Shown here: positions 5,707 to 28,348 of the stretch, piece by piece | Layout: each line of letters begins with the position of its first letter | How positions within the stretch are numbered: the first letter of the stretch is position 1 | From: Litoreibacter roseus | GTDB taxonomy: Bacteria; Pseudomonadota; Alphaproteobacteria; Rhodobacterales; Rhodobacteraceae | Direction: 5' to 3' | Assembly (NCBI RefSeq): GCF_009811795.1 | Contig: NZ_BLJE01000005.1 | Coordinates: 124,001-188,000 of the forward strand | DNA length: 64,000 nt | The notes under the pieces: model-generated | Seen by the model: the letters and a program-made list of their open reading frames with translations, nothing else | What the model was told of the DNA's origin: nothing | The model's database searches: none | Program-made: the position numbers and the translations under genes

Positions 5707-5723
5707 CCTGACCGTAGTCTTAG

Positions 5724-6332
5724 CTAGAAGCGGTAGTTGACGGACAAGCCAAGGGTCGTGGCTTCGGCTTCCAGATCATCCACGTCGAAATCGTCGAACT
5801 CATGGTAAAGCAACTCCGCGCCCGCAGTGATCTGCTCCGTCAGAAACACTTCGTAGCCGGCGCCGACGAAATAGCCATCTGAAGAGCCAACGGACAAGGT
5901 TCCGTCATCTGTGTCCGCACGCGCATACCCGGCGGTGCCGTAGTAAAAATTCCTGCCGCTAGGGATACCGACACGCGCACCGATCCGAAGAACAGAGTCG
6001 ATCGCGGCAACATCATCGAGATCGATATCGGCCCGGTCATACTGAATACCACCACCAACTACGAAGTTGCCGAAATCATAATCATAGTAGGCTCTGAGCC
6101 CGTACAGGAAATCATCCCCGTCCAGATCAGCGGCGCCGTCCGTTTCGACATCGCCGTAGCTCAGCTGTGCACCGACCGAGAAACCGGTCCAGTCATATAT
6201 CGGTGCTGCATCGACGACCGGTGCCGTTACAACCGGCGATGGTACGGGCTCCGCTGGTTCGAAACTGCCAGCCCAAACGGGGGATGTAATCATCATGCAG
6301 GTCGCTGTGGTGAACAAAATTTGACGTTTCAT
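5724..6332 (-). CDS. Outer-membrane beta-barrel protein
   Basis: 202 residues from the ATG at 6330-6332, preceded by AGAAGAAAG at good spacing; a GTG three codons earlier is less likely. Signal peptide: KRQILFTTATCMMITSPVWA. The mature protein has a Pro-rich linker (EPAEPVPSPVV) and then alternating strands typical of eight-stranded Omp barrels: DWTGFSVGAQLSYGDVETDG, GLRAYYDYDFGNFVVGGGIQ, VLRIGARVGIPSGRNFYYGT, and a C-terminus LGLSVNYRF ending in phenylalanine, the outer-membrane insertion signal. It resembles the Omp31/RopB-type porin family of alphaproteobacteria. The barrel is acidic and Asp-rich in its loops. Its role is probably structural or as an adhesin; no specific substrate is indicated. 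Confidence 0.88.
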   Translation of the reverse strand: MKRQILFTTATCMMITSPVWAGSFEPAEPVPSPVVTAPVVDAAPIYDWTGFSVGAQLSYGDVETDGAADLDGDDFLYGLRAYYDYDFGNFVVGGGIQYDRADIDLDDVAAIDSVLRIGARVGIPSGRNFYYGTAGYARADTDDGTLSVGSSDGYFVGAGYEVFLTEQITAGAELLYHEFDDFDVDDLEAEATTLGLSVNYRF

Positions 6333-6600
6333 AGCTTGCACTTTCTTCTGATACTCGATGACTGAAATGTAGGGGCGAACCGGGTCAGTTCTAACCTCAC
6401 AGGTCCGTGTATGGCGGCATCCTGCTTGGCCAAATCACGCCTGTGATGTGCGATAGGCGGTCTTTTGCGTCGGCTGCATTCCGTTAGCAGTTTGCCAGAT
6501 GTCTTAGATTTGTTTCCGAAACGAAAACAATCGATAACGGGGAATACGGGAACCAGACCCCTCCGCGCCGCCCGGGAGGACTTGAGAGAAATCTTGCAAG

Positions 6601-6768
6601 ATGCTGATTGGAAAAGTTAAAGTCGATCAAGCATTGAAGGTCTGGGGTTCTGAGGGAGACTTCATCGCCTACCGCGTGCCGGACGAGCGCCAAGGCAAGA
6701 AATCCGCAATTTCCTGCGAACCCGGCATTAAAAACATCGCCTGCTGCTCGCCAGATCAGACGGTTTGA
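6601..6768 (+). CDS. Doubtful small open reading frame
   Basis: A 55-codon frame starts at ATG 6601 and reads MLIGKVKVDQALKVWGSEGD, continuing with YRVPDERQGKKSAISC and ending ACCSPDQTV. It lies in the roughly 500-bp stretch between the outer-membrane gene and the alpha/beta hydrolase, where no larger gene fits. There is no strong ribosome binding site and I recognise no family. The composition is protein-like, so it is listed as a candidate only. The rest of 6333-6830 shows nothing I can support. Confidence 0.25.
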   Translation: MLIGKVKVDQALKVWGSEGDFIAYRVPDERQGKKSAISCEPGIKNIACCSPDQTV

Positions 6769-6830
6769 GTTGTTTCAACCTCGGCATCATGCTGCCAGTG
6801 CATCATTAACGCCAGCCGGCGGTGCCGGAT

Positions 6831-8156
6831 CTACTCCGTTGCGGGCAAAGTCTCAAACCTCAAACCCTTGGCCGTCCGCTTTGGAAAGCCGGTCCAATGG
6901 GTGTGATCGGGTTTTTCTGAACCGTCCTCTTCTTTCGACCAAGCCCCGTCGTTGGAGCGTGGAACAAGGTCCAGAAAGCGATCCATTTCCGCGTCGTCCT
7001 TCAGATGCCTGCCCAGCCACGCCGTCACAAAATGCTGTGCGATGTTGTTCATTCGGACCGTATCCCACACCGCATCCGTATAGTGCTCGGTCAGATTGAA
7101 CCCAAGATCTTCATCAAACCGGTCCGCCTCCTGCGGCGCGGGCATGGGTGCGGCCGCATTGTGGTTCGCATTGTCGAATGTCAGAAGGGCGCGGTCGGCA
7201 TTCACCGCCTGCTGCCAGAGTGCACGAACACCCGTCTCATACCCGGACACATCATCGACAGAGCCCGCAATAAAGAGCATCGGCGCGGTAATGCCCTTCA
7301 GCGTTTCCGCGTCCCAGAACACCCGGTTCATTCCCCAAGGTGCAAATGCAATGGCCGTCTTGATGCGCGGATCGCGAAGAGCAGCCAACGTGTCGGATCC
7401 GCTCTGGTGCACGGAAAGCGTACCGTGGGGTGCCCCCCAGCTGTAGTCGGTTGCAGTTTGAGTGACGCCACCGCCCATCGCGATAACGGCCCCGTACCCG
7501 CCCATGGAATATCCGATCAACGCCGTGTTCGACGTGTCCACAAGACCGCTGAGAAACGAAATGCTCTCGTTCGATAACCGCTCCATTTCATTCAACGTGA
7601 ACACCTGATCCAGAGGTCGATTGACCAGCGTCGAGCCAAAAGCGGCTTTGGTGCGATAGGTCGAGTCCGTATGATCAATGGACGCAACAACATAGCCTTT
7701 GGAGGCGATGTTTTCGGCCAGATGTGACAGCAGAAAGCGGTTGCCAGGATAGCCATGCGAAATCAGAACCAGCGGAAAGGGTCCCTGCCCCGGCGCTGCA
7801 TCGCGAACGGCCTGCCCCTCGATCTGCACTTGTGTCATCCCATCCCGCAAATAGACACTTAGGGCCGTCTCGCCAGATGCGCCCTCGGCCGCAGGATACC
7901 AGATCTCCACCCGCAGCGGGCGATCATAGCGCGGCAGTTCCGTTGGTCTTGGCCCGTCCGGGTCGATGGCAAGAATGTCGATTTGGTCTGGATTGGTCAG
8001 CGTGATGGATTGAACCCCAACGGGGAACGCGCCGTACGCCGAAAGCTCGGGCGCATTGGGCAGTTGTCGATCTATGCGATTTTCAGACATCGCGCCCGTT
8101 GGAGCAATCAGAAGACTGCAAAGGACAGCGCGCGCCGCCCTGATCAATTGTTGCAT
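6831..8156 (-). CDS. Secreted alpha/beta hydrolase (PAF-acetylhydrolase/dienelactone-hydrolase-like)
   Basis: 441 residues from the ATG at 8154-8156 with GGGGATC upstream. A signal peptide is present (RAARAVLCSLLIAPTGAM). The catalytic nucleophile elbow is GYSMGGYGA, and the oxyanion-hole region is PLVLISHGYPGNRFLLSHL. The late NANHNAAAP segment is a plausible histidine region. The block LRVEIWYPAAEG before the core is typical of secreted PAF-acetylhydrolase-like esterases. It should hydrolyse an ester in the periplasm or outside the cell; the substrate is unknown. It stands alone between intergenic stretches of 290 bp or more. Confidence 0.85.
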   Translation of the reverse strand: MQQLIRAARAVLCSLLIAPTGAMSENRIDRQLPNAPELSAYGAFPVGVQSITLTNPDQIDILAIDPDGPRPTELPRYDRPLRVEIWYPAAEGASGETALSVYLRDGMTQVQIEGQAVRDAAPGQGPFPLVLISHGYPGNRFLLSHLAENIASKGYVVASIDHTDSTYRTKAAFGSTLVNRPLDQVFTLNEMERLSNESISFLSGLVDTSNTALIGYSMGGYGAVIAMGGGVTQTATDYSWGAPHGTLSVHQSGSDTLAALRDPRIKTAIAFAPWGMNRVFWDAETLKGITAPMLFIAGSVDDVSGYETGVRALWQQAVNADRALLTFDNANHNAAAPMPAPQEADRFDEDLGFNLTEHYTDAVWDTVRMNNIAQHFVTAWLGRHLKDDAEMDRFLDLVPRSNDGAWSKEEDGSEKPDHTHWTGFPKRTAKGLRFETLPATE

Positions 8157-8327
8157 TGAAGATCCCCATCTCAAGATATTCCCCTGACCCTAACGTCCAT
8201 GCCCAGACTGCCAAGTAAGTGTATCTATACGTGGCCAGCGCCACGCCCACCAATCAACCGCAGGTGATTGTGTAACGAACGTCAGAGCGTTATGCTTGTG
8301 CTGAATTTGCAGCCCGAGGAGGATCTT

Positions 8328-8366
8328 ATGGCCAATGTCACATTCCCCCGGGCGGATCTGCGCTAG
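8328..8366 (+). CDS. Possible 12-residue leader peptide before rsgA
   Basis: A very strong Shine-Dalgarno run (GAGGAGGA) precedes ATG 8328, which encodes MANVTFPRADLR and stops at 8366, about 80 nt before the rsgA start. The ribosome binding site is better than that of rsgA itself. This could be a leader peptide or a translational standby element. It could also be chance, so confidence is low. Confidence 0.35.
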   Translation: MANVTFPRADLR

Positions 8367-8447
8367 CCCGCTGATCTGGCCCGACACGAGACTTTTGCTG
8401 ACCGCCTGCACGGCGTCGGCCCATTTACGTCTTTAAGGGCACTTCAC

Positions 8448-9485
8448 ATGACAAACACACCACTTACCGACCTCGGGTGGTCGGATACCTTCGCGTCTCA
8501 CGTCACGTCGGAGATCAACGAAACCGTTCAACCCGGGCGGCTCAGCGACGTGCACCGCGACCGTGTTCTGGCAAAAACCGCAGAAGGCGATGCCAGCCTG
8601 ACCCTTCCGGCGGGTATGACCACAGGCGATCTGGCTGTGGGCGATTGGGTTCTGGCAGATCTCGCAACGGGACAGGTCAAAACACTGGTTCCGCGCCGTA
8701 ACGTTGTGCGCAGAAAGGCCGCCGGAAACGACATGCGGGCACAACTTATCGCGGCAAATGTCGATACGCTCATGATTGTCACGTCCTGCAACGCGGACTT
8801 CAATCCCGCCCGGCTTGAACGCTATCTGGCACTGGCGGCAAGCAGCGATGCCCTGCCACTTGTCGTTCTGACCAAAGCTGATCTCGCGGACGATGCCGCC
8901 TCCTACCGCAGAGAGGTGGAGCGTCTGTCACCTCTCGCAACCGCCCTGACAATCGATGCGCGTGACATGTCTGAGCTTGCGACGCTCGCGCCGTGGCTCA
9001 GGCCCGGTGACACGGCTGCGTTGGTGGGATCATCCGGTGTTGGCAAGTCAACGATCCTGAATGGCCTGACCGGCGCGACCGCTTTGACACAAGGCATCCG
9101 GGAGGACGACGCAAAAGGCAGACACACCACAACGTCCCGCAGTTTGCGCCAGACGACCTGTGGCGGTTGGCTCATTGATACGCCGGGGATGCGGTCCTTG
9201 CCGCTCGACAACAGCGCCGACGGGATCGCGCAGGTCTTCGCCGATTTCGATGGTCTCACGGATCAGTGCAAGTTCTCGGACTGCCAGCACCTGACAGAAC
9301 CCGGCTGCGCAATCCAAGCGGCGGTTGCCGCCGGGGACTTGGACGAAAAACGGTTTCACCGCTGGCAGAAGTTGCAGCGGGAAGACCAGTACAACTCTGA
9401 AACAATTGCCGAGGCACGAGCCCGCCACAAAAACTTCGGCAAACGAGTGAAGTCCGCGATGAAAGAAAAACGGGATAAGCCATAG
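8448..9485 (+). CDS. rsgA: Ribosome small-subunit GTPase RsgA
   Basis: 345 residues. RsgA is a circularly permuted GTPase that binds the 30S subunit late in assembly and promotes RbfA release. The order of motifs is permuted as expected: an OB-fold (about 30-85), G4 TKAD at 142-145, P-loop GSSGVGKST at 194-202, G3 DTPG at 244-247, then the zinc knuckle with Cys274, Cys279, His281 and Cys287. The basic C-terminus (KNFGKRVKSAMKEKRDK) probably contacts rRNA. It is a single gene with a 290-bp upstream region that may hold a leader peptide. Confidence 0.96.
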   Translation: MTNTPLTDLGWSDTFASHVTSEINETVQPGRLSDVHRDRVLAKTAEGDASLTLPAGMTTGDLAVGDWVLADLATGQVKTLVPRRNVVRRKAAGNDMRAQLIAANVDTLMIVTSCNADFNPARLERYLALAASSDALPLVVLTKADLADDAASYRREVERLSPLATALTIDARDMSELATLAPWLRPGDTAALVGSSGVGKSTILNGLTGATALTQGIREDDAKGRHTTTSRSLRQTTCGGWLIDTPGMRSLPLDNSADGIAQVFADFDGLTDQCKFSDCQHLTEPGCAIQAAVAAGDLDEKRFHRWQKLQREDQYNSETIAEARARHKNFGKRVKSAMKEKRDKP

Positions 9486-9851
9486 AGGTCTTTATGGGCG
9501 GATTTGGCAGTAACGCAGTCGTGCGCGCGGGCGGGCGGTTTGTCAATTTGAAGTGCTCAACTGGGCCTGCGCGAAGTACGATCAGGCCAAACGTGACAAC
9601 AAGAAGCCATATCGCGACATTCCCACACCAAGAGAAGATGACTCAAAAAACGCGCTCCGTTTACTGGGTCTGCGACGCGTACATGTCCTATGCCGTCATA
9701 AGGAGAGATCTGCGTGCTCGGCAGTGTCGTTTTGATGAGCTGCGTTAGAAAAATGCATGATGCCCCGCCACTCGATAGCCTTCAGATGCTGATCCATTTT
9801 GGGCCGTCTAAACGCCAATACCGCATGGATGCCAGAGTTCATTGATTGACC
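9486..9851. other. Intergenic stretch with no supported gene
   Basis: This 366-bp interval lies between rsgA and the thioesterase. Short frames exist on the plus strand (for example 9494-9748 and 9553-9735), but they lack ribosome binding sites, mix unlikely residues and match no family I know. It may be the remains of a decayed gene. No terminator, tRNA or repeat is visible. Confidence 0.5.
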
Positions 9852-10385
9852 TCAGCCTATCAACTTGGCTTCGCTCTCTTTCCAATGCTGTACGGCACTG
9901 GGTAGGGTTGTCGCCGGTTGGGGGATCCCAAGCGCTTCAAATGACAGATCGTTGGTCACAAGACCTTTACGCGATACGGCCGCGCCCTTGGAATAGCCCG
10001 TAGCGCACAGTGTTCCATCCATCGCAGAGAACTGAAAGAAGAGATAATTCCAGTGGGCGTCAGCCCCGGTCCAGCGGTAGCTCACTTTGTATTTCTGCCC
10101 AAGCTTCAACTGTCGCCGATAGGTGATGATGGCGCCGCCAAGGACCGGCTTCCACCTGTTCCTGATCAATGCTTTCAGGAATCCGGTTCGTGCAAAATAT
10201 TCAACGGTCATGAGGTCTGCGATCGTCAAATAGCGGCCGTTGTTCATGTGCAGGTTGATGTCGATATCGTTTGGAAGCACACGCAACTCACGTTCGAAGC
10301 CGTCGGTGATCGACAGCTTGGGCAGCCACCATGTGCGCAGAACAGTCCAGATTAACCTCAGATACAAATTCATTAGGCGCCCCAT
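9852..10385 (-). CDS. Hotdog-fold acyl-CoA thioesterase-like protein (THEM6-like)
   Basis: 177 residues. The motif LPNDIDINLHMNNGRYLTIAD (about 37-57) is the catalytic-helix region of 4HBT-type hotdog thioesterases, with Asp and Asn-Asn-Gly in the THEM6/YiiD-like arrangement. The rest (GGAIITYRRQLKLGQKY, ATGYSKGAAVSRKG) follows the fold. The N-terminus (LMNLYLRLIWTVLRTWW) is hydrophobic and may anchor it to the membrane. The start could be Met1 or Met5. It diverges from a MarR regulator over 66 bp containing a palindrome, so MarR probably controls both. A role in fatty acyl turnover is inferred. Confidence 0.82.
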   Translation of the reverse strand: MGRLMNLYLRLIWTVLRTWWLPKLSITDGFERELRVLPNDIDINLHMNNGRYLTIADLMTVEYFARTGFLKALIRNRWKPVLGGAIITYRRQLKLGQKYKVSYRWTGADAHWNYLFFQFSAMDGTLCATGYSKGAAVSRKGLVTNDLSFEALGIPQPATTLPSAVQHWKESEAKLIG

Positions 10386-10389
10386 ACTA

Positions 10390-10423
10390 GTTCAACTTTG
10401 AACCATAAAGATCATATTTGAAC
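10390..10423. promoter_or_regulatory. MarR-type operator between thioesterase and marR genes
   Basis: GTTCAA-CT-TTGAAC at 10390-10403 is a perfect dyad, and a further half-site TTTGAACC follows at about 10416-10423. The site sits in the 66-bp divergent spacer, near the thioesterase start. Its size and position fit autoregulation by the adjacent MarR protein. Confidence 0.55.
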
Positions 10424-10451
10424 CAATCAAGGCACGGTTTATACTCTATGT

Positions 10452-10928
10452 ATGAAGCATCCATCCGACCCTATTCCTACCGATGATGTGTCACCCGCGG
10501 TTGCAACAGAGACGTGGCTAGCGGTTGTGCAAACCTACAACGAATGCACCGCGACATTATCAAAACGTCTCGAACCGCTTGGACTGTCGTTGCTCGAACA
10601 CGAAGTTCTGATGAACCTCATGCGGTCTGATGACCTAACGCAGAAGCAGCTTTCGCATCGGTGTTTTTCTGCAAAAAGCGGGATCAGCATGCTCATCTCG
10701 CGCTTTGAAGCCGACGGGCTGATCAGCCGGCGCCGGTCTGCGACAGATCAAAGAGCGTGGCTCCTATCGCTCACGCCAAAGGGACAAATACTTGCACGTC
10801 AGGCCTTTGATATTCAAAGCGAGGTTGTGACGGCCATGGCCAAGGCTTTTTCTGACGAGGAGCTGTCACTCGTCAAATCACGCATGGAGGATGCAACAGC
10901 GCGCCTCAGGACTTTAAGGGACAGCTGA
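10452..10928 (+). CDS. MarR-family transcriptional regulator
   Basis: 158 residues, winged helix-turn-helix dimer. The core GLSLLEHEVLMNLMRSDDLT, QKQLSHRCFSAKSGISMLIS (recognition helix) and EADGLISRRRSATDQRAWLL (wing with the usual D-R-R/A) are textbook MarR. The terminal helices mediate dimerisation. It is divergent from a thioesterase and probably represses it and itself through the palindrome at 10390. The likely ligand is a small aromatic or acyl compound, but nothing shows which. Confidence 0.9.
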   Translation: MKHPSDPIPTDDVSPAVATETWLAVVQTYNECTATLSKRLEPLGLSLLEHEVLMNLMRSDDLTQKQLSHRCFSAKSGISMLISRFEADGLISRRRSATDQRAWLLSLTPKGQILARQAFDIQSEVVTAMAKAFSDEELSLVKSRMEDATARLRTLRDS

Positions 10929-16460: not shown

Positions 16461-17672
16461 CTATTCCGGTCGTGTCATCGTGATCTGTGTCACGTCGCAG
16501 TTTCCACTCCAGAAAGTAGCCGCGCAAGAGGTCAGATAAAAATTCCACATCCGACGGAACCTGGCATCAAATCCAAGCTCTGCAACCTCATCCCATCGGG
16601 CGTTGAACGTCTCATGCCAGCGGCGCAATGTCTGGCTGTAGCTCTCGCCGAATTCGATGGAATGCTTAAGGTTCAACCCAGAGCGCGCGATCTCGTCCCG
16701 CAGGACTTTCGGGCTGGGCAGCATGCCCCCCGGAAAGATATATTTCTGAATGAAATCAACGCCTCGCTTGTAGACAGCCCACCGTCTGTGCTCAACGGTT
16801 ATGATCTGCAGCGTTGCGTTCTTGCCAGGCTTCAAGCGGTCACGCACAGCGTTGAAATAAACCGGCCAGTATTTCTCGCCGACGGCCTCAAACATCTCGA
16901 TTGAGGCGATGCCGTCATATGTGCCTTTTTCGTCGCGGTAGTCCTGCATCTTGATCTCGACCTGCCCCTCAAGCCCGGCTTTGCGGATGCGATCCACTGC
17001 GTAATCGTGCTGTTCCTGACTGATTGTGAGCCCGGTCACTTTCAGACCCCGCTCTTTCGCGGCGTATTCGGCAAAGCCACCCCAGCCACACCCGATCTCC
17101 AGGACGTGATCCCCCGGCTGCGCCCCCATTTCGTCGATCATGCTGGCGTATTTCTGGGTCTGGGCCTTCTCCATGCTCTCTTGCCCGGTCTTAAAAAAGG
17201 CAGAGCTGTAGGTCATCGTGTCGTCGAGCCAGATGTCATAAAATTCGTTACCGAGATCGTAATGATAGCTGATATTCTTCTTGGCTTGCTTGCGGGAATT
17301 GGCCTGCATCCAAAATCGTAGTTTCTCGTAGGCCCGGACAAGCCCCATACCGGGATAGCCATCATAGACGTCCTCATTGTCCGCGTGCACCAGATCCATG
17401 AGCGCCTGCAGGTCCGGCGTCGACCACCAGTCATCCAGATAGGCGTCGCAGAAGCCCAGATCGCCCTCGCGGATGAGCCGCGCGAAAAGATCGTTGTTGT
17501 GAACGGTAAATTCAGCAATTGGCCCGGGCTTTGCACCCTCTGCGCGAAAGACGCGACCGTCCTCCAGCTTGATATCGAGCCGTCCATAGGTCAGCTTCTG
17601 TGCCGTCTGAAAGGCCTGAGAAAAATAGCGCGGCAGAGCCTTCTGTCCGACGGTGGTATTAAGAGCTTCCAT
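16461..17672 (-). CDS. cfa: Cyclopropane-fatty-acyl-phospholipid synthase
   Basis: 403 residues. The enzyme methylenates unsaturated acyl chains of membrane phospholipids using S-adenosylmethionine. The SAM-binding loop VLEIGCGWGG is at 190-199. The preceding SYHYDLGNEFYDIWLDDTMT block and the later SIEMFEAVGEKYWPVYF and QIITVEHRR blocks hold the catalytic Glu and bicarbonate-site residues. Length fits the family. It follows phr by 100 bp that contain two inverted repeats, so it probably has its own promoter. I recall that phrA and cfaA are neighbours and RpoE (singlet oxygen) targets in R. sphaeroides. Confidence 0.95.
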   Translation of the reverse strand: MEALNTTVGQKALPRYFSQAFQTAQKLTYGRLDIKLEDGRVFRAEGAKPGPIAEFTVHNNDLFARLIREGDLGFCDAYLDDWWSTPDLQALMDLVHADNEDVYDGYPGMGLVRAYEKLRFWMQANSRKQAKKNISYHYDLGNEFYDIWLDDTMTYSSAFFKTGQESMEKAQTQKYASMIDEMGAQPGDHVLEIGCGWGGFAEYAAKERGLKVTGLTISQEQHDYAVDRIRKAGLEGQVEIKMQDYRDEKGTYDGIASIEMFEAVGEKYWPVYFNAVRDRLKPGKNATLQIITVEHRRWAVYKRGVDFIQKYIFPGGMLPSPKVLRDEIARSGLNLKHSIEFGESYSQTLRRWHETFNARWDEVAELGFDARFRRMWNFYLTSCAATFWSGNCDVTQITMTRPE

Positions 17673-17772: not shown

Positions 17773-19188
17773 TCAGCGATTTTTATACGCGGCAAGAGCC
17801 CGTTCCCGTCCTTCGTCCAAGGCGACAATGGGTTCTGGATAGCTGTCGTCGATGGACATGTTCCAGCTCTGGGGAATGGCTTCGAAGTAGTCTTCGGCCT
17901 CTTCTCCGTGATCCTCGAAAAGCTCCCCAAGAAACCGCGCACGATAAACCCGGTTGCTGTCGAATTTCTCGGCCTGCGTTGCGGGGTTGAAGACACGAAA
18001 AAACGGCGTGGCATCGGGGCCTGATCCTGCGGACCATTGCCACCCCATTGCGTTCGACGCCGGATCCCAGTCAATCAGGCAGTCCTCGAACCATTTCATC
18101 CCAACCTTCCAGTGGGTCATCAGATGCTTGGTCAGATAAGAGGCCACGATCATCCGTCCACGGTTATGCATCGTTCCAGTGACGTACATTTCGCGCATCG
18201 CAGCATCCACCAGTTGAACGCCCGTACGCCCCTGCTTCCACGCCTTGATTTCCGCGGCTCGCTCGTCATCTTTCCACGGGAAACCGTCCCATTCCTCCCG
18301 CCAGTTGGCGGATGTGATCCGCGGCGTGTGATAGGCCAGATGATACGCGAATTCACGCCAAACAAGTTCTTTCAGAAAAGTCTCGGCCCCCGCTTTCCCA
18401 TCGGCCAGCGCGCGCCGCCCCGCGTGCCAGCAGCGGCGGGTAGAGATTTCCCCGTAGGTGAGATTTTCGGATAAGTTCGAGGTCCCCTTCTCGGCGATCC
18501 GGTCCCGCGCTTCGGCATAGTCCGCGATCCTGTGCCCCATGAAAGTGCCTAGCCGCTGGGACGCAGCATCCTCCCCGACCGCGACATGCTTTGCAACAAT
18601 GTCGGCGCCGCGCACCATGCCTGCGCGCATGTTCCATTTCGACAAGTCCTCGCTGTCCGGCCAAGCATCGGGCGCTTTCAGCGCAGAGACCGCAGGCAGA
18701 TCCGATGGCACGTCCCTGTCGCGCACTGATTTCCACATGGGTGTGTAGACCTTGTAGAAATCGCCCTGCTTGGTCTCGACGGTCCACGGTTCGAACAGCA
18801 GATGTCCCAGATGGCTCTGTGCATCGATCCCGTCTTCGCTGAGACCGGATTTCACCTTTTTGTCCCGCGCGATCCCATCGGGATCATAGGCGCGGGTCCA
18901 CCAGACCGACCCTGCCCCGGTCTCCTTAATCAGAGCGCGCAAAACCTCCAGCGCCGTGCCTTTGCGCAAGATCAGCCGTGATCCGATGCCTTCGAGCGTT
19001 TCGGCAAAATGCGCGACCCCCAACCCCAGACGCCACTTCGGAGCCGCGCCGTGACCAGCGACAACCTCATCATGGACAAACACAGGGATCACGGGACGCC
19101 CGGTCTTGCCGGCTTCGGTCAATCCCTCGTGATCACCCAGCCGCAAATCGCGGCGGAACCAGTACAGGATCGGTGTATCGTCAGCCAT
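17773..19188 (-). CDS. phrB: Deoxyribodipyrimidine photolyase
   Basis: 471 residues, DNA repair flavoprotein that splits cyclobutane pyrimidine dimers with blue light. The N-terminal antenna domain starts ILYWFRRDLRLGDHEGL. The C-terminal FAD domain has LTYGEISTRRCWHAGR, ELVWREFAYHLAYH, the signature TGTMHNRGRMIVASYLTKHL and WQWSAGSGPDA. All are class I CPD photolyase landmarks, including the tryptophans of the electron-transfer chain. It lies between acuI (73-bp gap) and cfa. Grouping of photolyase with Cfa points to a light or singlet-oxygen damage response. Confidence 0.95.
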   Translation of the reverse strand: MADDTPILYWFRRDLRLGDHEGLTEAGKTGRPVIPVFVHDEVVAGHGAAPKWRLGLGVAHFAETLEGIGSRLILRKGTALEVLRALIKETGAGSVWWTRAYDPDGIARDKKVKSGLSEDGIDAQSHLGHLLFEPWTVETKQGDFYKVYTPMWKSVRDRDVPSDLPAVSALKAPDAWPDSEDLSKWNMRAGMVRGADIVAKHVAVGEDAASQRLGTFMGHRIADYAEARDRIAEKGTSNLSENLTYGEISTRRCWHAGRRALADGKAGAETFLKELVWREFAYHLAYHTPRITSANWREEWDGFPWKDDERAAEIKAWKQGRTGVQLVDAAMREMYVTGTMHNRGRMIVASYLTKHLMTHWKVGMKWFEDCLIDWDPASNAMGWQWSAGSGPDATPFFRVFNPATQAEKFDSNRVYRARFLGELFEDHGEEAEDYFEAIPQSWNMSIDDSYPEPIVALDEGRERALAAYKNR

Positions 19189-19261: not shown

Positions 19262-20251
19262 CTAAGCGTTGACGTCGACCACCAAGCGGCCTTTGACCTG
19301 ACCTTTCAGGATTTTGGCCCCAAGATCGGGCAGATCCGAAAGCGTCGCGGGCTGAATCATCTCGTCCAATTTGTCCATCGGCAGGTCACTGGCAATCCGT
19401 TCCCAAGCACGCAGCCGACCCTCATAGGGCTTCATCACGCTGTCGATGCCAAGAAGGTTCACGCCGCGCAAAAGAAACGGAATAACCGTCGCAGGCAAAG
19501 CCGCCCCACCGGCCAGACCAACAGCGGCCACGGACGTGCCGTACTTCATCTGCCCCAAAACGCGCGCAAGCATCTCACCGCCAACCGCGTCGACACAGCC
19601 CGCCCAGGTTTCGGCCTCAAGCGGGCGCTTCACAGTCTCGTTGATCTCGTCGCGCGCCACAATCTGAGTGGCACCCAGAGATTTCAGGTAATCTGCGGTT
19701 TCTGGCCGCCCGGTGACGCCTGCAACCTCGTAGCCGAGTTTCGCCAAAATCGCTGTGGCAACCGAGCCAACCCCACCAGCGGCCCCAGTTACCAGCACCG
19801 GGCCATGACCTGGTGTCATCCCGTGATCTTCAAGCGCCATGACAGCCAGCATCGCGGTGAACCCGGCGGTGCCGACCGCCATCGCGTGACGCGTGTCCAA
19901 ACCTTTGGGCAGGGGAACCAGCCAGTCCGCCCGTACCTTGGCCTTCTGCGCGTACCCGCCCCAGTGCGCTTCGCCCACGCGCCATCCGGTCAGTACGACC
20001 TTGTCGCCCGGCGCGTAGCGGTCGTCGTCGGATGTCTCTACGGTCCCCGCAAAGTCGATGCCCGGCACATGAGGGTAGTTGCGGACCAAACCACCACCCG
20101 GCCCAATGCACAGTCCGTCCTTGTAATTCACGGTGGAGTATTCGACGGCTACGGTCACATTCCCGTCCGGCAGCCGATCCTCAGAAATCTCCTGAACAGA
20201 GGCACTTGTCTTGCCGTCCTCATCCTTTTCGACGATCAAAGCATTGAACAT
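19262..20251 (-). CDS. acuI: Acryloyl-CoA reductase AcuI (NADPH)
   Basis: 329 residues, medium-chain dehydrogenase/reductase without zinc ligands. The start FNALIVEKDEDGKTSA and STVNYKDGLCIGPGG match the AcuI/YhdH family. The NADPH-binding loop is LVTGAAGGVGSVA (about 154-166), followed by VAGVTGRPE, which favours the 2'-phosphate. AcuI reduces toxic acryloyl-CoA to propionyl-CoA after DMSP catabolism or, in the demethylation route, handles acrylate-type intermediates. It lies 12 bp downstream of dmdA on the same strand, an arrangement I recall from Ruegeria pomeroyi and relatives. The dmdA neighbour makes the specific call much safer. Confidence 0.93.
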   Translation of the reverse strand: MFNALIVEKDEDGKTSASVQEISEDRLPDGNVTVAVEYSTVNYKDGLCIGPGGGLVRNYPHVPGIDFAGTVETSDDDRYAPGDKVVLTGWRVGEAHWGGYAQKAKVRADWLVPLPKGLDTRHAMAVGTAGFTAMLAVMALEDHGMTPGHGPVLVTGAAGGVGSVATAILAKLGYEVAGVTGRPETADYLKSLGATQIVARDEINETVKRPLEAETWAGCVDAVGGEMLARVLGQMKYGTSVAAVGLAGGAALPATVIPFLLRGVNLLGIDSVMKPYEGRLRAWERIASDLPMDKLDEMIQPATLSDLPDLGAKILKGQVKGRLVVDVNA

Positions 20252-20263
20252 GGTCTCTCTCCT

Positions 20264-21364
20264 CTAGATCCAGAAATTTTCCTCGACCCGAGCAGGGCGC
20301 GGGCCGTCTGTGGTCTCAACTCTCAGTTCCGTGCCAGGGTCCCAATGAGTGATCCGCACCATGCCGATGGCGACATTGGTGTTGAAGTCAGGGCTCTTGG
20401 CAGCGGAGGTCACTTTTCCGATCCGTTTGCCCTTGGCCGTGATAGGCCACGCGCGATCACAGGGCGGGATATCGCCCTCAATCGACAGCGGCCGAATTTG
20501 TTGCACGGGTCCTTCCTTTGCAACCCGCAGCAAAGCATCCCGACCCACGCAGCCAATAGCCGTCTGGGTCGAGCAGAACCTTCCCAGCCCGCATTCATGG
20601 GGCGTGTTCTCTCGGGTCATATCGTTGCCGTAGCTCAGCAACCCGCCTTCGACGCGCTCGATCCCGTTGGGGCATCCGGCCCGGACATCCAGATCGCGCC
20701 CCGCCTCAAACAGCGCGTTCCAGAGCGGCATTCCGATCTCGCTGCCCTCCACATAGATCTCGAAACCGCCCTGCTTGGAGTAACCGGACCGGGCAACGAC
20801 CAGCGCCTGCCCTTGAAAATCAAAATATCCGTAGCGGAAAAATCGGATGTCGCGCACGCCGTCGCCAAACACCCGTGCCATCAGATCCTCGGCTTTGGGG
20901 CCCTGAACGGCCAAGGGCGATACGTCAGGTTCTTCCGCGAGGACATCAAGACGAAGACCGTACGCCAACCCTTTGACCCACAACAAAAGATCGCTGTCAG
21001 CAATAGACACCCAGTAGCGATCATCGCTTAGCATAAGGGCGACCGGGTCGTTCAACATGCCGCCAGTTTCATCGACCATGGGCACATAATAACACATGCC
21101 GGGCAGCATCCCGCGCAAGTCCCTCGGGGTCAGCATTTGCATCAAGCGGCCTGCATCGGGACCACGCAGTTCGACCTGCCGCTCGACCGAGACATCCCAA
21201 ACCTGCACGGCGTTTTTCAGATGGTGGTAGTCTTCGTCCACCGAGCGAAATACCGTCGGCAATAGCATGTGGTTATAACAAGTGTAGGCCTTAACCCCGG
21301 CGGCTTCGACACCGTCGGAAAACGGGGTTCTGCGCAACCGGCGAGAGGGAGAGATCAACGCCAT
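20264..21364 (-). CDS. dmdA: Dimethylsulfoniopropionate demethylase DmdA
   Basis: 366 residues, a glycine-cleavage T-protein homologue that moves one methyl of DMSP to tetrahydrofolate, yielding methylmercaptopropionate. The N-terminus ISPSRRLRRTPFSDGVEAAG and YTCYNHMLLPTVF, the folate-site region GGMLNDPVALML, and the block YSKQGGFEIYVEGSE match DmdA as I recall it from marine roseobacters, as does the C-terminal VEENFWI. Its start immediately follows the DinB stop with no gap, and acuI follows after 12 bp. That packing implies a polycistronic unit with the DUF2182/DUF1326/DinB genes. It is a strong marker of a marine lifestyle. Confidence 0.94.
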   Translation of the reverse strand: MALISPSRRLRRTPFSDGVEAAGVKAYTCYNHMLLPTVFRSVDEDYHHLKNAVQVWDVSVERQVELRGPDAGRLMQMLTPRDLRGMLPGMCYYVPMVDETGGMLNDPVALMLSDDRYWVSIADSDLLLWVKGLAYGLRLDVLAEEPDVSPLAVQGPKAEDLMARVFGDGVRDIRFFRYGYFDFQGQALVVARSGYSKQGGFEIYVEGSEIGMPLWNALFEAGRDLDVRAGCPNGIERVEGGLLSYGNDMTRENTPHECGLGRFCSTQTAIGCVGRDALLRVAKEGPVQQIRPLSIEGDIPPCDRAWPITAKGKRIGKVTSAAKSPDFNTNVAIGMVRITHWDPGTELRVETTDGPRPARVEENFWI

Positions 21365-21868
21365 TCAAAACGCCTCCGGCATAAACGCCAAGTCACTGAT
21401 CATCGTTTTGTGTCCCGCTGCGGTCAGCATTGCATGAATTTGTCCGCGATGGTGGGTCTGATGGTTGAAGAAATGCATGATGCACATTGCCTTGGACTGC
21501 GTGACATTCCGCCCAGAAAGACCTGAGTACCACGTCAGCGGCCCAACCAGATCGACATGGGTCAGTCGCCCGGCCCAACGGGTGATATGACCATCGGTGC
21601 GCCGGCGATCATCTAGAAAAGGCTGCAACTCCGAATGCAGATCGAGGCCACCCGGTGTCCCCCCGGGTGGCGGTCCGCCGCTGAGCCGTGACAACCACAT
21701 CTTGTCGCCCCAAAGCAAATGGTTTGCTGTGGACCAGATCGATCCAAAAAATGCCTTACGATCCTTGCGCAACTCCGTTTGGTTCAGCGCCAGCATCGCC
21801 TGTTCAAGCCCTTCATTCTGCCACGCATTGTAACGTGACATAACCTTGCAGAACTCGACTGTGATCAT
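21365..21868 (-). CDS. DinB-like metal-dependent helical-bundle protein
   Basis: 167 residues from the ATG at 21866-21868, chosen because it starts two bases after the upstream stop and gives the family start (VEFCKVMSRYNAWQNEGL). The DinB/YfiT metal triad is complete: His50 (STANHLLWGD), His136 and His140 (HFFNHQTHHRGQ). These proteins bind Zn or Ni; some are thiol-dependent S-transferases and others are of unknown function. Here the gene is sandwiched with no spacing between a DUF1326 gene and dmdA, so a role in handling a small thiol or methylated-sulfur product is worth considering, but this is inference. Confidence 0.88.
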   Translation of the reverse strand: MITVEFCKVMSRYNAWQNEGLEQAMLALNQTELRKDRKAFFGSIWSTANHLLWGDKMWLSRLSGGPPPGGTPGGLDLHSELQPFLDDRRRTDGHITRWAGRLTHVDLVGPLTWYSGLSGRNVTQSKAMCIMHFFNHQTHHRGQIHAMLTAAGHKTMISDLAFMPEAF

Positions 21869-21869
21869 C

Positions 21870-22568
21870 TCAGGGACCAGACCACGCGATCGGGCAGATC
21901 TCTGCGGATTTCCCGCCAAAATCCCAGACGCGCCCATAATCGCGTACGCGGCTTTTCGTACCAACGGCAGCAATGATATCGGGGCCCATCCAGTATTTGG
22001 AGTTCGAGACCATGACTGGGTGATCGGGGCTCTTTCCATCGATCATTTCGATCTCGCCCTGAATTTTTCGTCCGATCACGATGGACCGTTTCTTGCCATC
22101 CCGGACGATCTCGACCGGGGCACGTTCAGCCCCGATGATTTCGCTGACGAGCATGGTGAAAAGACCCGTCGTACCACCCGCTGCACCTGAGAAGATTTTC
22201 AGGATGCCGTTATAGGCTTTCTGGGTCGCGCGCTCATCTACGTAAGCGCCAACCTTCCAGTTGCCCTCGCCCATGCGACCGGGGATGTCCACCAGCAGAC
22301 CGACATTCAGCCCGGCGAGGCTTTCGCCCTCGAAATGCCCGTCGTCAATCGCAACGGCCATCCACGCGTGGCAGTGACCCTCCGTCGGTGGGTGCGCCCC
22401 AAGCGAGACGACGCAGGGACAAAACACGGTGCAGGAGCAATTCAGAAAAAGCTCCCCGTTAATCGCCCAATCGGTCGGCTCTTTCCGCCTGCGCGACGGG
22501 TTCATCCGACTGTCGATCTTCTGCATGACCTGCAGTCTGTCCGAGGGTTTTCTGTCCGCTTTTGCCAT
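21870..22568 (-). CDS. DUF1326 protein
   Basis: 232 residues. The N-terminal motif WAINGELFLNCSCTVFCPCV with Cys44, Cys46, Cys50 and Cys52 is the hallmark of DUF1326, followed by GHCHAWMAVAIDDGHFEG and a beta-rich domain. No signal peptide is visible. The cysteine cluster suggests metal binding, but no biochemistry is known to me. DUF1326 genes usually accompany a DUF2182 membrane protein, as here (12-bp gap upstream). The first 20 residues (MAKADRKPSD) are charged and may be a weak start; an alternative Met is at residue 15. Confidence 0.85.
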   Translation of the reverse strand: MAKADRKPSDRLQVMQKIDSRMNPSRRRKEPTDWAINGELFLNCSCTVFCPCVVSLGAHPPTEGHCHAWMAVAIDDGHFEGESLAGLNVGLLVDIPGRMGEGNWKVGAYVDERATQKAYNGILKIFSGAAGGTTGLFTMLVSEIIGAERAPVEIVRDGKKRSIVIGRKIQGEIEMIDGKSPDHPVMVSNSKYWMGPDIIAAVGTKSRVRDYGRVWDFGGKSAEICPIAWSGP

Positions 22569-22580
22569 TGTGAGCTCCTC

Positions 22581-23312
22581 TCAGGTCAGACCGTATCCGG
22601 CGGTTGCGCATCCCGCAATTATCAAGATCACGCCCAACGGGCGGGTTATATGACGGCCGACTTGCGGCAGTTTTTCCAAGATCATCACAAACGTTGCGAG
22701 GCCCATCCAAAGCAGGCTCATGACACCACCGACGAAGCCGAGAGCCATAAAGCCCCAACAGCAACCGACGCAGAATGAGCCGAGGCCAAGCCCCATGCGC
22801 AGCCCGCCCGCAAAACCGGTTTTCCAACGGCCCAGAAAATAGGTCATAGGCGACAGGCAAACGCCGTGGCACGCGTCCTTGATCCTAGTAAATTGATAGA
22901 TCCCAACCGCAAACAACAATGCCGCGGCGATGAACGGCGAGGCAGAAGTACCAAGCGACGTAATCGCGCCGCTTGTCAAAAGTGCGACCTGCACCGCCGA
23001 GATCAATACCGCGAAGCCTACCCATGTAATGAAGTATCCAAGTAACACACCGAGCCACCCTGCCCGTGTCCCGTTGGCGCTGCGCATCAGGTCTTCGTAG
23101 GACAAAAGCGTCGGGACGAGCGTTGGCAGCATCATCGCAGCCATCATGATCGCCCACATGGGAAAAAGCGCCCCGAAGCTCGTCATCGGCATCATATTCA
23201 TGCTCATAGGCCGCCCGATGAGATCGACGCCCGACATTTGCGCCATGGAAAACATGACCCACCACGCGGCGAGTATGGCACCGAAAAAGCCAAGCCACCC
23301 TATGGACCTCAT
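22581..23312 (-). CDS. DUF2182 polytopic membrane protein (predicted metal-binding)
   Basis: 243 residues from the ATG at 23310-23312, preceded by GAGCGGAGC. About six spans are visible, including LGFFGAILAAWWVMFSMAQM, LFPMWAIMMAAMMLPTLVP (the DUF2182 signature W-MMxAMMLP), LGVLLGYFITWVGFAVLISA and FVGGVMSLLWMGLATFVMIL. A CHG motif (DACHGVCLSP) and CVGCCWG suggest metal or thiol chemistry near the membrane. It is the first gene of the dmdA unit and faces the FadR-type gene across a double operator. A TTG start at 23357 in the same frame is possible but would lie next to the operator. Confidence 0.85.
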   Translation of the reverse strand: MRSIGWLGFFGAILAAWWVMFSMAQMSGVDLIGRPMSMNMMPMTSFGALFPMWAIMMAAMMLPTLVPTLLSYEDLMRSANGTRAGWLGVLLGYFITWVGFAVLISAVQVALLTSGAITSLGTSASPFIAAALLFAVGIYQFTRIKDACHGVCLSPMTYFLGRWKTGFAGGLRMGLGLGSFCVGCCWGFMALGFVGGVMSLLWMGLATFVMILEKLPQVGRHITRPLGVILIIAGCATAGYGLT

Positions 23313-23356
23313 TGCTCCGCTCAACCTGGACAGCCTCCGGTTTGTCTTGCATTTCA

Positions 23357-23383
23357 ATTGTCAGACATTAATTGTCTGACATA
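23357..23383. promoter_or_regulatory. FadR-type double operator between DUF2182-dmdA unit and fadR-like gene
   Basis: TGTCAGACA (23359-23367) and TGTCTGACA (23373-23381) are perfect inverted repeats separated by TTAAT. Each arm carries a GTC-n-GAC core, the type of site bound by FadR-subfamily GntR regulators. The two cores are 14 bp apart. The site ends one base before the ATG of the divergent regulator gene, so binding would block its transcription start or translation start, and it lies 47 bp upstream of the DUF2182 start. Confidence 0.75.
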
Positions 23384-24111
23384 TGAAAATCGATCCGTCC
23401 AGCCCAAAGGATTTGTCCGCTCAGATCGCTCAAGCCATTCGCGATGCCATCGTCGCGGGCAAACTTATCGTAGACGCGCGTCTGCCGTCTGAAACGGAAT
23501 TGTCAGACCAATTCAACGTGTCCCGGTCGACAGTGCGCGAAGCGCTGAAACGACTTGCGGCGCAAAGCCTGATCCGCACGCAGCGGGGTGCCACCGGAGG
23601 GGCCTTCGTCAATCGTCTGACATTTGAAGATGCGCAAGCAATGCATGTCACGACCTCGACCCTTCTTTTGTCGATGAATGATGTCAGCTTCACCCAGGCC
23701 TGTGAGGCGCGCTACGCGCTGGAACGGGCCTGCGCCGTTATGGCATGTACCCGGCGCGAGAGCTCTCATCTGGAAAAAATGAAAGCAGAGCTGGGGCATC
23801 AGGCCCAAGATGAGCTGAGTGACGAGGCCTTCTGCGCTTCCGATGTCGCCTTTCACCGCGCCTTGGTCGACAGCGCGAGCAACCCGGTTCTGAGTTACCA
23901 ACTTGCAGGCGCGGTAGAGGCGATGCAGCCGCTGATGAATATGATCACCTTTACGGCCCGCTCTCGCGTCAAAATCCTGATGCTTCATGGAAACATCGTC
24001 GATGCGCTAGAGCAACGCGATCCGTCCGCGGTGAAAGATAGCCTTGATCTGCTTGAAAGTTACACACAAGCGCTCGCAGAGGATCTGATCGTCGCTCGAC
24101 CAAGCGGCTGA
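23383..24111 (+). CDS. FadR-subfamily GntR transcriptional regulator
   Basis: 242 residues. The N-terminal winged helix spans about 8-72 (LPSETELSDQFNVSRSTVRE, then LKRLAAQSLIRTQRGATGG). The C-terminal FCD ligand-binding domain is all-helical (EARYALERACAVMA, DVAFHRALVDSASNPVL, LMLHGNIVDALEQRD) and carries Asp and His residues that bind a metal in this family. It probably senses a carboxylic acid. It diverges from the DUF2182-to-acuI unit with a perfect double operator between, so it likely represses that unit and itself. No Shine-Dalgarno sequence is visible before ATG 23383, which suggests a leaderless message. Confidence 0.92.
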   Translation: MKIDPSSPKDLSAQIAQAIRDAIVAGKLIVDARLPSETELSDQFNVSRSTVREALKRLAAQSLIRTQRGATGGAFVNRLTFEDAQAMHVTTSTLLLSMNDVSFTQACEARYALERACAVMACTRRESSHLEKMKAELGHQAQDELSDEAFCASDVAFHRALVDSASNPVLSYQLAGAVEAMQPLMNMITFTARSRVKILMLHGNIVDALEQRDPSAVKDSLDLLESYTQALAEDLIVARPSG

Positions 24112-24191: not shown

Positions 24192-25241
24192 ATGTCTCAT
24201 CTTCCCCGCCTTCTGGGTTGCGCCGCCAGCGCGCTTATCGCGACAGCGGCCAGCGCTGCCGACCCGGAGCTTTTGGTTTTCGATTGGTCCGGGTTCGAGG
24301 AAGAAGGGTTTTTTCAAGCCTACATTGATGCCCATGGCGCGCCGCCGACCTTTGCGTTCTTTGGGGAAGAGGAAGAAGCATTTCAGAAGCTGCGCTCAGG
24401 CTTTAAGGCCGACGTATCTCACCCTTGTTCGCAATCCGTGGACAAATGGTACCAAGCGGGCCTGATCGAGCCGTGGGACGTCTCGAAAATTCCGGCCTAT
24501 GAAACTGTCGCCGACATCTACAAGAACGACCCTACGTTTGTGCGCGATGGTGAGGTCTACTTCATTCCCGTCGATCTGGGTATGACAGGGCTTGCCTACA
24601 ATGCAGACGAGGTCACAGAAAACGAGGTCGCGTCCCTGTCCGTTTTCCTCGATCCGAAATATGCTGGCCGTATCTCGCTGCCAGACAATGTGGACGACGC
24701 ATTTGCACTGGCCTTTCTGGCGACCGGTGTCAGCGACTGGACGCAGGCAACGGAAGAGCAATTGGCGGCCGCAAGCGATTGGTTGCGTCAGGCTCATGAC
24801 AACACACGGGCCTATTGGGCCGATGGCGCGGAACTAGCGCAACTGATGGCGACGGGCGAAGTACTAATCGCCTGGGCATGGAACGAAACCCCCGTCCAGA
24901 TGGTCGGCGACGGTTACAATATCGAGTTCCAACGCGAGGCGGCCGAAGGCTCGTCAGCCTGGTTCTGCGGATACGTAAACCTCGTGGATGGACCGGGATC
25001 GGAAGACAAGGCTCACGATTTTATCAACGCGTGGCTCAGTGACAGCAGCGCGCAATACATCGTGACGGAATGGGGCTATGGCCATTCCAACACCGAGGCG
25101 ATGAGCGGGTTTGGCGAAGAGGAACTGACGGAGGTCGGCTTGAACGAGATCGAGGCCCCGCTGCTGGCGCAGTTACCCATGGACAACGCCCTGCGGGAAC
25201 AAATGATCCAACAGTTCGAACGGATCAAAGCGGGCTTCTAA
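24192..25241 (+). CDS. Periplasmic solute-binding protein, spermidine/putrescine (PotD)-like
   Basis: 349 residues with a signal peptide (LLGCAASALIATAASAA, cleaved near residue 23). The mature start ELLVFDWSGFEEEGFFQAYI resembles PotD/PotF-type binding proteins, as do FIPVDLGMTGLAYNADEV and VLIAWAWNETPVQM. The ligand is probably a polyamine or another cationic amine, but this is uncertain. It follows the FadR-type gene by 80 bp on the same strand. No permease or ATPase genes are adjacent, so it is an orphan binding protein. An intrinsic terminator follows. Confidence 0.87.
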   Translation: MSHLPRLLGCAASALIATAASAADPELLVFDWSGFEEEGFFQAYIDAHGAPPTFAFFGEEEEAFQKLRSGFKADVSHPCSQSVDKWYQAGLIEPWDVSKIPAYETVADIYKNDPTFVRDGEVYFIPVDLGMTGLAYNADEVTENEVASLSVFLDPKYAGRISLPDNVDDAFALAFLATGVSDWTQATEEQLAAASDWLRQAHDNTRAYWADGAELAQLMATGEVLIAWAWNETPVQMVGDGYNIEFQREAAEGSSAWFCGYVNLVDGPGSEDKAHDFINAWLSDSSAQYIVTEWGYGHSNTEAMSGFGEEELTEVGLNEIEAPLLAQLPMDNALREQMIQQFERIKAGF

Positions 25242-27550: not shown

Positions 27551-28348
27551 ATGCCAGCGTTCAACGAAATATCACCCGACAATCTCACGCGCAGGGTCGG
27601 CCTGCCCGACGCGCCAGTCTTGATAGATGTGCGCATCGAGGAAGACGTGGCCGCGATTGCGGCCCGCGTGCCGACCGCCCTGCCCTGCGCATTTCAGTCC
27701 GTCGCCGATCTTGTACCCACGCTTGGGACGCGCCCGGCGGTCGTAATCTGCCACAAGGGCCTCAAGCTCAGCCACGGCGCGGCTGCGGTCTTGCGCAGTC
27801 ATGGCGTCGCGGCCGAAGTGCTGGACGGCGGCATGGTTGGATGGTCAGAGGCCGGGTTACCAATGGTACCCATGGGTGCCTACCCCGGACCGCTTTGGGT
27901 GACACGCCACAGGCCCAAGATCGACCGCATCGCATGCCCGTGGCTGATCCGCAGATTTGTTGATCCGACAGCCCGGTTCCTGTTTGTGCCCCCGGCCCAA
28001 GTGCAGGATGTCGCGACCCGTTTTGGGGCAACTCCCTTCGACATGCCAGACGGCGATTGGAGCCACAAAGGCACATTCTGCACCTTTGACAAGATGGTCG
28101 AAACCTTCGGGTTGACCACCCCAGCCTTGACCCGACTGGCCACCGTGGTGCGTGCGGCGGATACAGGTCGTCACGATTTGGCCCCCGAAGCTGCAGGTCT
28201 TCTTGCCGTCTCAGTCGGACTGTCACGGAAATTTCGCAATGATCTGGAACAGCTAGATGCCGGAATGATGCTCTACGACGCGCTCTATCGCTGGGCGCGG
28301 GATGGTCAGGGCGAAGATCACGAGTGGCCTGAAGGACATCTTTCATGA
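27551..28348 (+). CDS. chrB: Rhodanese-ChrB fusion chromate resistance protein
   Basis: 265 residues. Residues 1-105 form a rhodanese-like domain with the cysteine loop CHKGLKLSHG (Cys67). Residues from about 110 form the ChrB C-terminal domain, with RPKIDRIACPWLIRRFVDPT, FVPPAQVQ and FCTFDKMVETFGL. ChrB proteins sense chromate or support its reduction; fusion to rhodanese is common in this family. The gene overlaps chrA by four bases (ATGA at 28345-28348), so the two are translated together. It starts 125 bp after the tmRNA. Confidence 0.88.
   Translation: MPAFNEISPDNLTRRVGLPDAPVLIDVRIEEDVAAIAARVPTALPCAFQSVADLVPTLGTRPAVVICHKGLKLSHGAAAVLRSHGVAAEVLDGGMVGWSEAGLPMVPMGAYPGPLWVTRHRPKIDRIACPWLIRRFVDPTARFLFVPPAQVQDVATRFGATPFDMPDGDWSHKGTFCTFDKMVETFGLTTPALTRLATVVRAADTGRHDLAPEAAGLLAVSVGLSRKFRNDLEQLDAGMMLYDALYRWARDGQGEDHEWPEGHLS

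Follow-up and report, generated by a model that had tools for sequence, protein, structure and literature searches.

Demethylation of dimethylsulfoniopropionate (DMSP) is a main organic sulfur route in surface seawater. Here we describe a locus of this pathway in Litoreibacter roseus, located in a stretch of 64,000 nucleotides (contig NZ_BLJE01000005.1, positions 124,001 to 188,000; G000:C5:124001-188000 in our numbering) that is part of a 4.47 Mb genome and is called the window below. In this locus the genes for the DMSP demethylase DmdA and the acrylyl-CoA reductase AcuI follow three genes for a DUF2182 membrane protein, a DUF1326 protein and a DinB-family protein (the module), from which a regulator gene diverges.

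A dmdA-acuI operon has been described in Ruegeria pomeroyi DSS-3 (SPO1913-SPO1914), where according to the accessible text of Todd et al. (2012; PMC3338564) dmdA is likewise directly followed by acuI and both are induced ~10- to 14-fold by DMSP and acrylate. The link between dmdA and acuI is well established, as the preliminary description of the window had stated. In the window, the DUF2182, DUF1326 and DinB genes separate the regulator and its operator from dmdA. A promoter reporter for R. pomeroyi contained 222 bp upstream of dmdA (PMC7181598, accessible part), which would be compatible with a dmdA gene not preceded by the module in that strain, as in the loci with a diverging gntR gene followed by dmdA and acuI found here. 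As far as its text is accessible, the literature on dmdA regulation treats dmdA-acuI (PMC3338564, PMC4029986) or dmdA alone (PMC7181598), and the accessible sections of two Phaeobacter papers on dmdA and methyl-group use (PMC12366255, PMC11306105) contain neither 'DUF' nor 'operon'.

Two further systems resemble parts of the locus. The founding member of the PpoB2 family takes part in copper transfer to tyrosinase in Marinomonas mediterranea (COG5486; PMC2855505, accessible part). The DUF2182 protein is, like PpoB2, a PF09948 membrane protein with presumed metal ligands, but its operon contains no tyrosinase, it is paired with DUF1326 and DMSP genes, and copper transfer by it is putative. Copper handling next to methylated-sulfur metabolism is also found in the mtoX-SCO1-mauG cluster (PMC5739008, accessible part); there the chaperone belongs to a different family, and in L. 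roseus the SBP56 gene lies elsewhere in the genome (G000:C2:866106). With the DinB family the third module protein shares the Pfam match and the conserved histidine set.

Plasmid pMaD9 of Marinovum algicola DG 898 (CP010864) carries the same order of regulator, DUF2182, DUF1326, dmdA and, in the place of acuI, an alcohol-dehydrogenase-type gene; it differs by an acyl-CoA ligase gene in the DinB place and by an SBP56 gene that follows. All of these stand in a row at positions 3393-10597 of the fetched plasmid stretch (L335), so that perhaps much of the demethylation route is on one plasmid. The record labels the two DUF genes 'Transmembrane protein involved in DMSP breakdown' and 'protein involved in DMSP breakdown'; the link has therefore already been noticed by someone. 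Consequently, the system can be called undescribed only for the papers: no mention of DUF2182 or DUF1326 was found in the searchable open-licence literature, an absence of little weight, but the pMaD9 record already connects both proteins with DMSP breakdown.

The features of the locus are as follows (window positions; bit scores with their cut-offs).

19262-20251, minus strand: acuI, acrylyl-CoA reductase (NADPH); NF051456 440.6 bits (cut-off 440, passed by only 0.6 bits), broader model TIGR02823 459 bits (cut-off 297)
20264-21364, minus strand: dmdA, DMSP demethylase; equivalog NF009133 672 bits (cut-off 410), residues 1-366
21365-21868, minus strand: DinB-family metal protein, 167 aa; Pfam PF05163 71 bits (cut-off 23)
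21870-22568, minus strand: DUF1326 soluble protein with CxCxxxCPC...C; Pfam PF07040 177 bits (cut-off 25)
22581-23357, minus strand: DUF2182/PpoB2-family multi-helix membrane protein; Pfam PF09948 202 bits (cut-off 28.7)
23359-23381, between the divergent genes: double operator TGTCAGACA-N5-TGTCTGACA, from a pattern search of the genome and the loci
23383-24111, plus strand: divergent GntR/FCD transcriptional regulator; Pfam GntR and FCD domains above cut-off

The five genes between 19262 and 23357 are on the minus strand and are separated by 12, 1, 0 and 12 bp, which bears out the coordinates and families first proposed for this run; dmdA and acuI, 12 bp apart on the same strand, have the layout of the dmdA-acuI operon. 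For DUF2182 the open reading frame (ORF) list gives a TTG start. We consider the ATG at 23312 the more probable start: conservation among the orthologues sets in at this point, and the TTG would fall at the operator.

In order to see how common the arrangement is, DmdA and DUF2182 were searched in 394 genomes of the family (393 genera). DmdA scored above the cut-off in 169 genomes and DUF2182 was matched in 214. Both occurred in 144 genomes, dmdA only in 25, DUF2182 only in 70 and neither in 155 (odds ratio 12.8, uncorrected for kinship). The neighbourhood sample consisted of the 150 best-listed dmdA loci, including the one in the window; 21 further genomes above the cut-off lie outside it. 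By coordinates, DUF2182 was found upstream of dmdA on the same strand in 87 of the 150 loci, mostly at a distance of 0.7-0.85 kb, with a single gene in between, or of 1.0-1.5 kb, with two; in four loci the distance is 2.3 kb. We fetched 120 loci, namely all 63 without a listed DUF2182 neighbour and 57 of the 87 with one (30 were omitted at random), and the DUF1326 counts refer to these. Some of the fetched loci end at contig edges; in L082 the sequence stops 323 bp short of dmdA.

With profiles made from the window proteins, DUF2182 and DUF1326 were found together in 57 of the 57 and also in 34 of the 63 loci, and in these 34 DUF2182 ends 0.6-2.4 kb ahead of dmdA. In at least 121 of the 150 loci, DUF2182 thus lies no more than 2.4 kb upstream of dmdA, and DUF1326 was present in each of the 91 fetched loci with DUF2182 in this position. 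The proposal that the module belongs to the dmdA operon could have failed had the three genes never been near dmdA, and it withstands this test. The commonest orders were a diverging gntR, DUF2182, DUF1326, DinB, dmdA and acuI, and the same without DinB. DinB (55 of the 120 stretches) is the least constant of the three module genes; the regulator was found in 84 and acuI in 99 stretches. Two genomes have two dmdA genes above the cut-off, and the module is at neither of them in G086 (L110, L118) and at one in G370 (L073, L124).

A second set consisted of the 80 loci from named genomes nearest in DUF1326, with genera including Ruegeria, Sulfitobacter, Roseovarius, Yoonia, Tateyamaria and Marivita; the closest DUF1326 proteins are from Litoreibacter (91% identical). 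DUF2182 precedes DUF1326 in all 80; Ruegeria denitrificans (L257) is an example with the complete operon. Behind the module, 71 loci have dmdA and acuI, four have acuI without dmdA (L245, L246, L248, L252), one has neither (L190), and in four the stretch ends just past the module. In at least 44 of 58 named loci, 1100-1106 bp separate the stop codons of DinB and dmdA; therefore dmdA begins close to the DinB stop.

Between the divergent genes there are two TGTCnGACA-type sites, TGTCAGACA at 23359-23367 and TGTCTGACA at 23373-23381, whose starts are 14 bp apart. The double operator reported in the preliminary description is hence present with both 9-mers. Single 9-mers are unremarkable, as two in 64 kb were matched by 29 of 100 shuffles. 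The close pair TGTCNGACA-N3-8-TGTCNGACA occurs once in the whole genome, and the control with the pattern reversed gave no occurrence; when up to two mismatches were allowed in a second pattern, again this place alone was found. Accordingly, no further target of the regulator was found in this genome among double operators, the search being for paired sites only. The second site ends one base ahead of the regulator ATG, leaving no space in 23359-23383 for a ribosome-binding site. For this reason the regulator mRNA is possibly leaderless and autoregulated. A similar spacing between operator and ATG was seen in several other loci.

The site is conserved beyond L. roseus. For these counts only the fetched loci of the family set were used, since the named loci share some genomes with them. 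In 68 of the 84 dmdA loci with a diverging regulator, the 9-mer lies within 320 bp at the beginning of the regulator gene: 61 of the 74 in which DUF2182 is next in line and 7 of the 10 in which it is not. Of three palindromes used as controls, one was present in 2 of the 74 loci and the other two in none of them, and all three were absent from the 10. Altogether these loci contain 113 such 9-mers in 1.23 Mb, of which 83 fall inside the 26.9 kb of regulator starts. In the 10 loci without DUF2182 next, the next recognised gene is dmdA in eight (five with the 9-mer), DinB in one and DUF1326 in one; L069 and L104 have more than 1 kb between regulator and dmdA. As the 9-mer is frequent in both groups, the same operator accompanies the operon with or without the module. 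The regulator had been called a FadR-family protein. This holds for the FCD subfamily, to which it belongs by its GntR and FCD domains, but not for FadR proper: with the two NCBIfam FadR models it reached 35.4 and 32.6 bits, far from their cut-offs of 189 and 249.

The module proteins were then compared residue by residue. It had been stated that none of the three has a known role, which is not the case for DUF2182, the Pfam PpoB2 family of copper chaperones. In 38 of 38 aligned DUF2182 members C167, C196, C199, C200, M71, M76 and M213 are invariant, and C163 (37/38), M75 (37/38) and M67 (36/38) are nearly so. The protein has a Met-rich first loop, by inference on the periplasmic side, an MxxxMxxxMM motif in a membrane helix, and KxxCHGVC and FCVGCCW motifs. 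We take the spacing of M67, M71, M75 and M76 in the helix to recall the MxxxM of Ctr-type copper transporters. In DUF1326, C44, C46, C50, C52 and C66 are present in all 41 aligned members from this and other families. These five cysteines and two glycines are the only fully invariant residues; a sixth cysteine, C225, is found in 13 of 41, and no lysine reaches 85%. Inspection by eye revealed no signal peptide. In the structural model of DUF1326 (predicted TM score, pTM, 0.77) residues 53-63 of the Cys-rich part are of low confidence, and no solved relative was found by sequence better than E 0.5. In the DinB alignment, whose 113 rows come from two sets of loci that partly overlap, H50, H136, H139 and H140 are each conserved in 112; these histidines are presumably metal ligands. 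The closest solved relative of the DinB protein by sequence was found at E 0.078 only. The metal motifs pointed out earlier are thus real sets of conserved Cys, Met and His residues, but the specific tie to methanethiol proposed with them is not supported, as explained below.

On the basis of the gene arrangement and its conservation, the common operator and invariant Cys, Met and His residues we infer, with a probability of about 0.4, that DUF2182 and DUF1326 are a copper(I) or soft-metal pair co-expressed with DMSP and acrylate breakdown under one regulator and operator. The five genes would be transcribed together, with the neighbouring GntR/FCD regulator acting on the single, genome-unique double operator, and the locus would be a variant of the known operon with a conserved, probably co-regulated accessory module. 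By analogy with R. pomeroyi, the regulator would release the operator when DMSP or acrylate is present. Together, DUF2182 and DUF1326 would handle a soft metal, copper(I) being the likeliest. The ion might pass from the Met-rich outer loop of DUF2182 via the MxxxMxxxMM helix and the membrane cysteines to the five cysteines of cytoplasmic DUF1326, or in the opposite direction; DinB would be an auxiliary metal protein that is often absent. While DmdA and AcuI process carbon and sulfur, the module would balance copper and thiolate chemistry. The reason for joint expression of the pair with DmdA and AcuI would be, we propose, that thiols such as methanethiol and the thiol-reactive electrophile acryloyl-CoA arise when DMSP is broken down. 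The wider proposal, that a copper(I) import, hand-off or thiolate-buffering device with DUF2182 as channel and DUF1326 as acceptor is normal in the DMSP/acrylate regulon of most DMSP-demethylating Rhodobacteraceae, is tentative.

Several observations weigh against the copper(I) reading. To our knowledge DmdA and AcuI are not copper enzymes, and in the open-licence literature searched no metal binding, transcript or phenotype is reported for DUF1326. For the topology of DUF2182 and the path of the copper we relied on the positive-inside rule and a single model; this model has helices of membrane length and a modest pTM of 0.68, and its comparison with solved structures gave no match at E <= 0.001. 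The fold match of DUF1326 is to an enzyme and to no known copper protein. Scanning for consensus promoters gave none on the operon strand, not even in the operator region, and is therefore uninformative on internal promoters. The module is also dispensable, since 29 of the 120 fetched dmdA loci lack the complete DUF2182-DUF1326 pair, some of them because of contig ends. A tree of DmdA from the 120 loci requires at least 19 changes between presence and absence of the module (21-29 in 100 shuffles, mean 26). DinB changes 23 times (shuffles 31-45), acuI 12 times (16-21) and the regulator 28 times (26-35), a value within the shuffle range, so that the regulator shows no clustering on the tree. Because of these repeated changes we regard the module as common but often lost or gained. 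Finally, the presence of the module is not correlated with mtoX in genomes that carry dmdA.

The pair was also followed away from dmdA. From 37 listed places we picked by hand 20 DUF2182 loci in family genomes without dmdA, that is, without a match above 410 bits. In nine of them DUF2182 and DUF1326 stand in the DMSP-type order, whereas the DUF2182 genes of the other 11 are of another kind. In seven of these nine, acuI follows on the same strand (at a distance of ~1 kb in L324); L330, with acuI on the opposite strand, differs in layout from the other DMSP-type loci without dmdA, and the stretch of L331 is truncated. A DmdA-like match below the cut-off is present in three of the nine genomes (G384, G389 and G129, with E 1.8e-112, 2.0e-109 and 5.6e-110). 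Where dmdA is absent from the operon, the module stays with acuI and often with the regulator. A search of 299 genomes across the phylum found DUF1326 in 22 outside the family and 9 inside. In 37 of 40 loci fetched away from dmdA the two genes are adjacent, which suggests that DUF1326 and DUF2182 work as a pair. DUF1326 comes first in 26 of the 37 and DUF2182 in 11, these being the nine DMSP-type family loci together with L296 and L311 from outside the family. The latter two have high DUF1326 scores (325 and 373 bits), and dmdA, acuI and the regulator were not recognised nearby. Within the family, L312-L320, L322 and L325 represent a second type of DUF1326-DUF2182 pair in reversed order and without DMSP genes. 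No fixed neighbour of the pair was found outside DMSP operons among 126 flanking ORFs (of 157 candidates) at 31 loci; the commonest flanking Pfam family among those listed (25 of 100) was TetR_N, in four.

We considered four other explanations for the module. It could supply copper to the methanethiol oxidase MtoX (SBP56), needed when demethylation frees methanethiol. MtoX is copper-dependent and has copper-chaperone neighbours of its own (PMC5739008, accessible part), the Marinovum run reads DUF2182-DUF1326-acyl-CoA ligase-dmdA-acuI-SBP56, and by eye SBP56 was seen up to 8 kb from dmdA in at least four of the 150 loci (G043, G066, G240, G345). Over the 394 genomes SBP56 and DUF2182 co-occur (odds ratio 5.5). 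This association is also seen among the genomes without dmdA, where DUF2182 is present in 19 of 35 with SBP56 and in 51 of 190 without (odds ratio 3.2, p 0.0024) and where many DUF2182 genes are of the other kind. Among dmdA carriers the figures are 89 of 101 with SBP56 and 55 of 68 without (odds ratio 1.75, p 0.27), and on the DmdA tree module and SBP56 changed together in 3.0 and oppositely in 3.0 of 11 pairs. A second SBP56 count, with 13 weak matches of 136 dropped by hand, had the same outcome. Moreover, four of the nine module genomes without dmdA have SBP56. A methanethiol-specific role, as once suggested for the locus, is thus not supported, in view of the dmdA carriers and of the nine of 20 loci that keep the module without dmdA. 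Co-occurrence with the oxidase was rejected as the whole explanation, and copper supply to MtoX appears improbable. It is also conceivable, if rather unlikely, that the module protects against electrophiles, with DUF1326, its membrane partner and DinB, whose superfamily includes thiol S-transferases, protecting or repairing thiols hit by acrylate or acryloyl-CoA. The module would then go with AcuI and not with demethylation. Acrylyl-CoA attacks sulfhydryls (PMC4029986, accessible part), and the seven loci with acuI behind a DMSP-type pair and the four named loci with module and acuI but no dmdA in the stretch agree with this. So does the presence of acuI near dmdA in 84 of 91 loci with the module and 15 of 29 without, but on the DmdA tree this tie is not significant (2.1 pairs with and 1.0 against, of 11). 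The PF16867 DMSP lyase was found in seven of the nine genomes and in 73 of 216 others without dmdA (odds ratio 6.9, p 0.011; 24 weak lyase matches of 189 were dropped by hand). Yet the 20 loci are few and hand-picked, and the three genomes with a DmdA-like match are among the nine. DUF2182 and the lyase are unrelated over all genomes (odds ratio 1.49, p 0.065), among dmdA carriers (0.92) and among the rest (1.21), so that a general tie was discarded. In addition, the five DUF1326 cysteines are invariant also in members without DMSP context, for which reason a metal site suits this protein better than sacrificial thiols.

The structural comparison of DUF1326 raises the idea of an acetoacetate-decarboxylase-fold enzyme acting on a DMSP or acrylate intermediate, with the cysteines holding a structural metal. 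All nine Foldseek matches at E <= 0.001 are acetoacetate decarboxylase-like, the best being 3bgt (E 8e-6, probability 1.00, TM 0.44, root mean square deviation 11). These matches are nevertheless weak (TM 0.34-0.44, deviation >10), Pfam and PDB sequence searches do not support them, and invariance confined to cysteines and glycines, with no widely kept lysine, speaks against this idea, which we consider very improbable. An unrelated gene pair could also have landed behind the operator and been inherited with the operon. The lack of a recurrent partner elsewhere and the absence of the module from about a fifth of the dmdA loci are compatible with such hitch-hiking. Gene order and strand are, however, kept in most fetched loci, the spacing between the DinB and dmdA stops varies little in most of the named loci that were compared, and the module remains with acuI where dmdA is not in the operon; we therefore give hitch-hiking little credence. 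The present data cannot tell the copper(I) reading and these rivals apart.

Some neighbouring genes were also recorded. A photolyase gene (window 17773-19188) and then a cyclopropane-fatty-acid synthase gene (16461-17672) come after acuI, and they occur in 21 and 10 of the 120 dmdA stretches. Past the regulator there is a gene for a PotD-like substrate-binding protein (24192-25241), found in 23 of the 120 stretches and possibly serving osmolyte uptake. At 27551-28348 a rhodanese-type protein is encoded whose similarity to the chromate resistance protein ChrE (34.6 bits) does not reach the cut-off of 120.

In many marine roseobacter-type bacteria, two proteins of the DMSP operon look like copper-handling proteins. 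As far as the literature is accessible, this operon has been treated as dmdA-acuI, and with the module a piece of the marine sulfur cycle would have escaped attention; a possible loss of the module from the model strain would account for this. DUF1326, of unknown function in Pfam, and DUF2182, with one studied member found, would gain a physiological context, a candidate inducer and a one-operator switch. If most carriers co-express the module, the use of DMSP would involve an unrecognised trace-metal or detoxification need, and if the copper(I) reading is true, copper handling would be tied to one of the largest marine organic sulfur fluxes.

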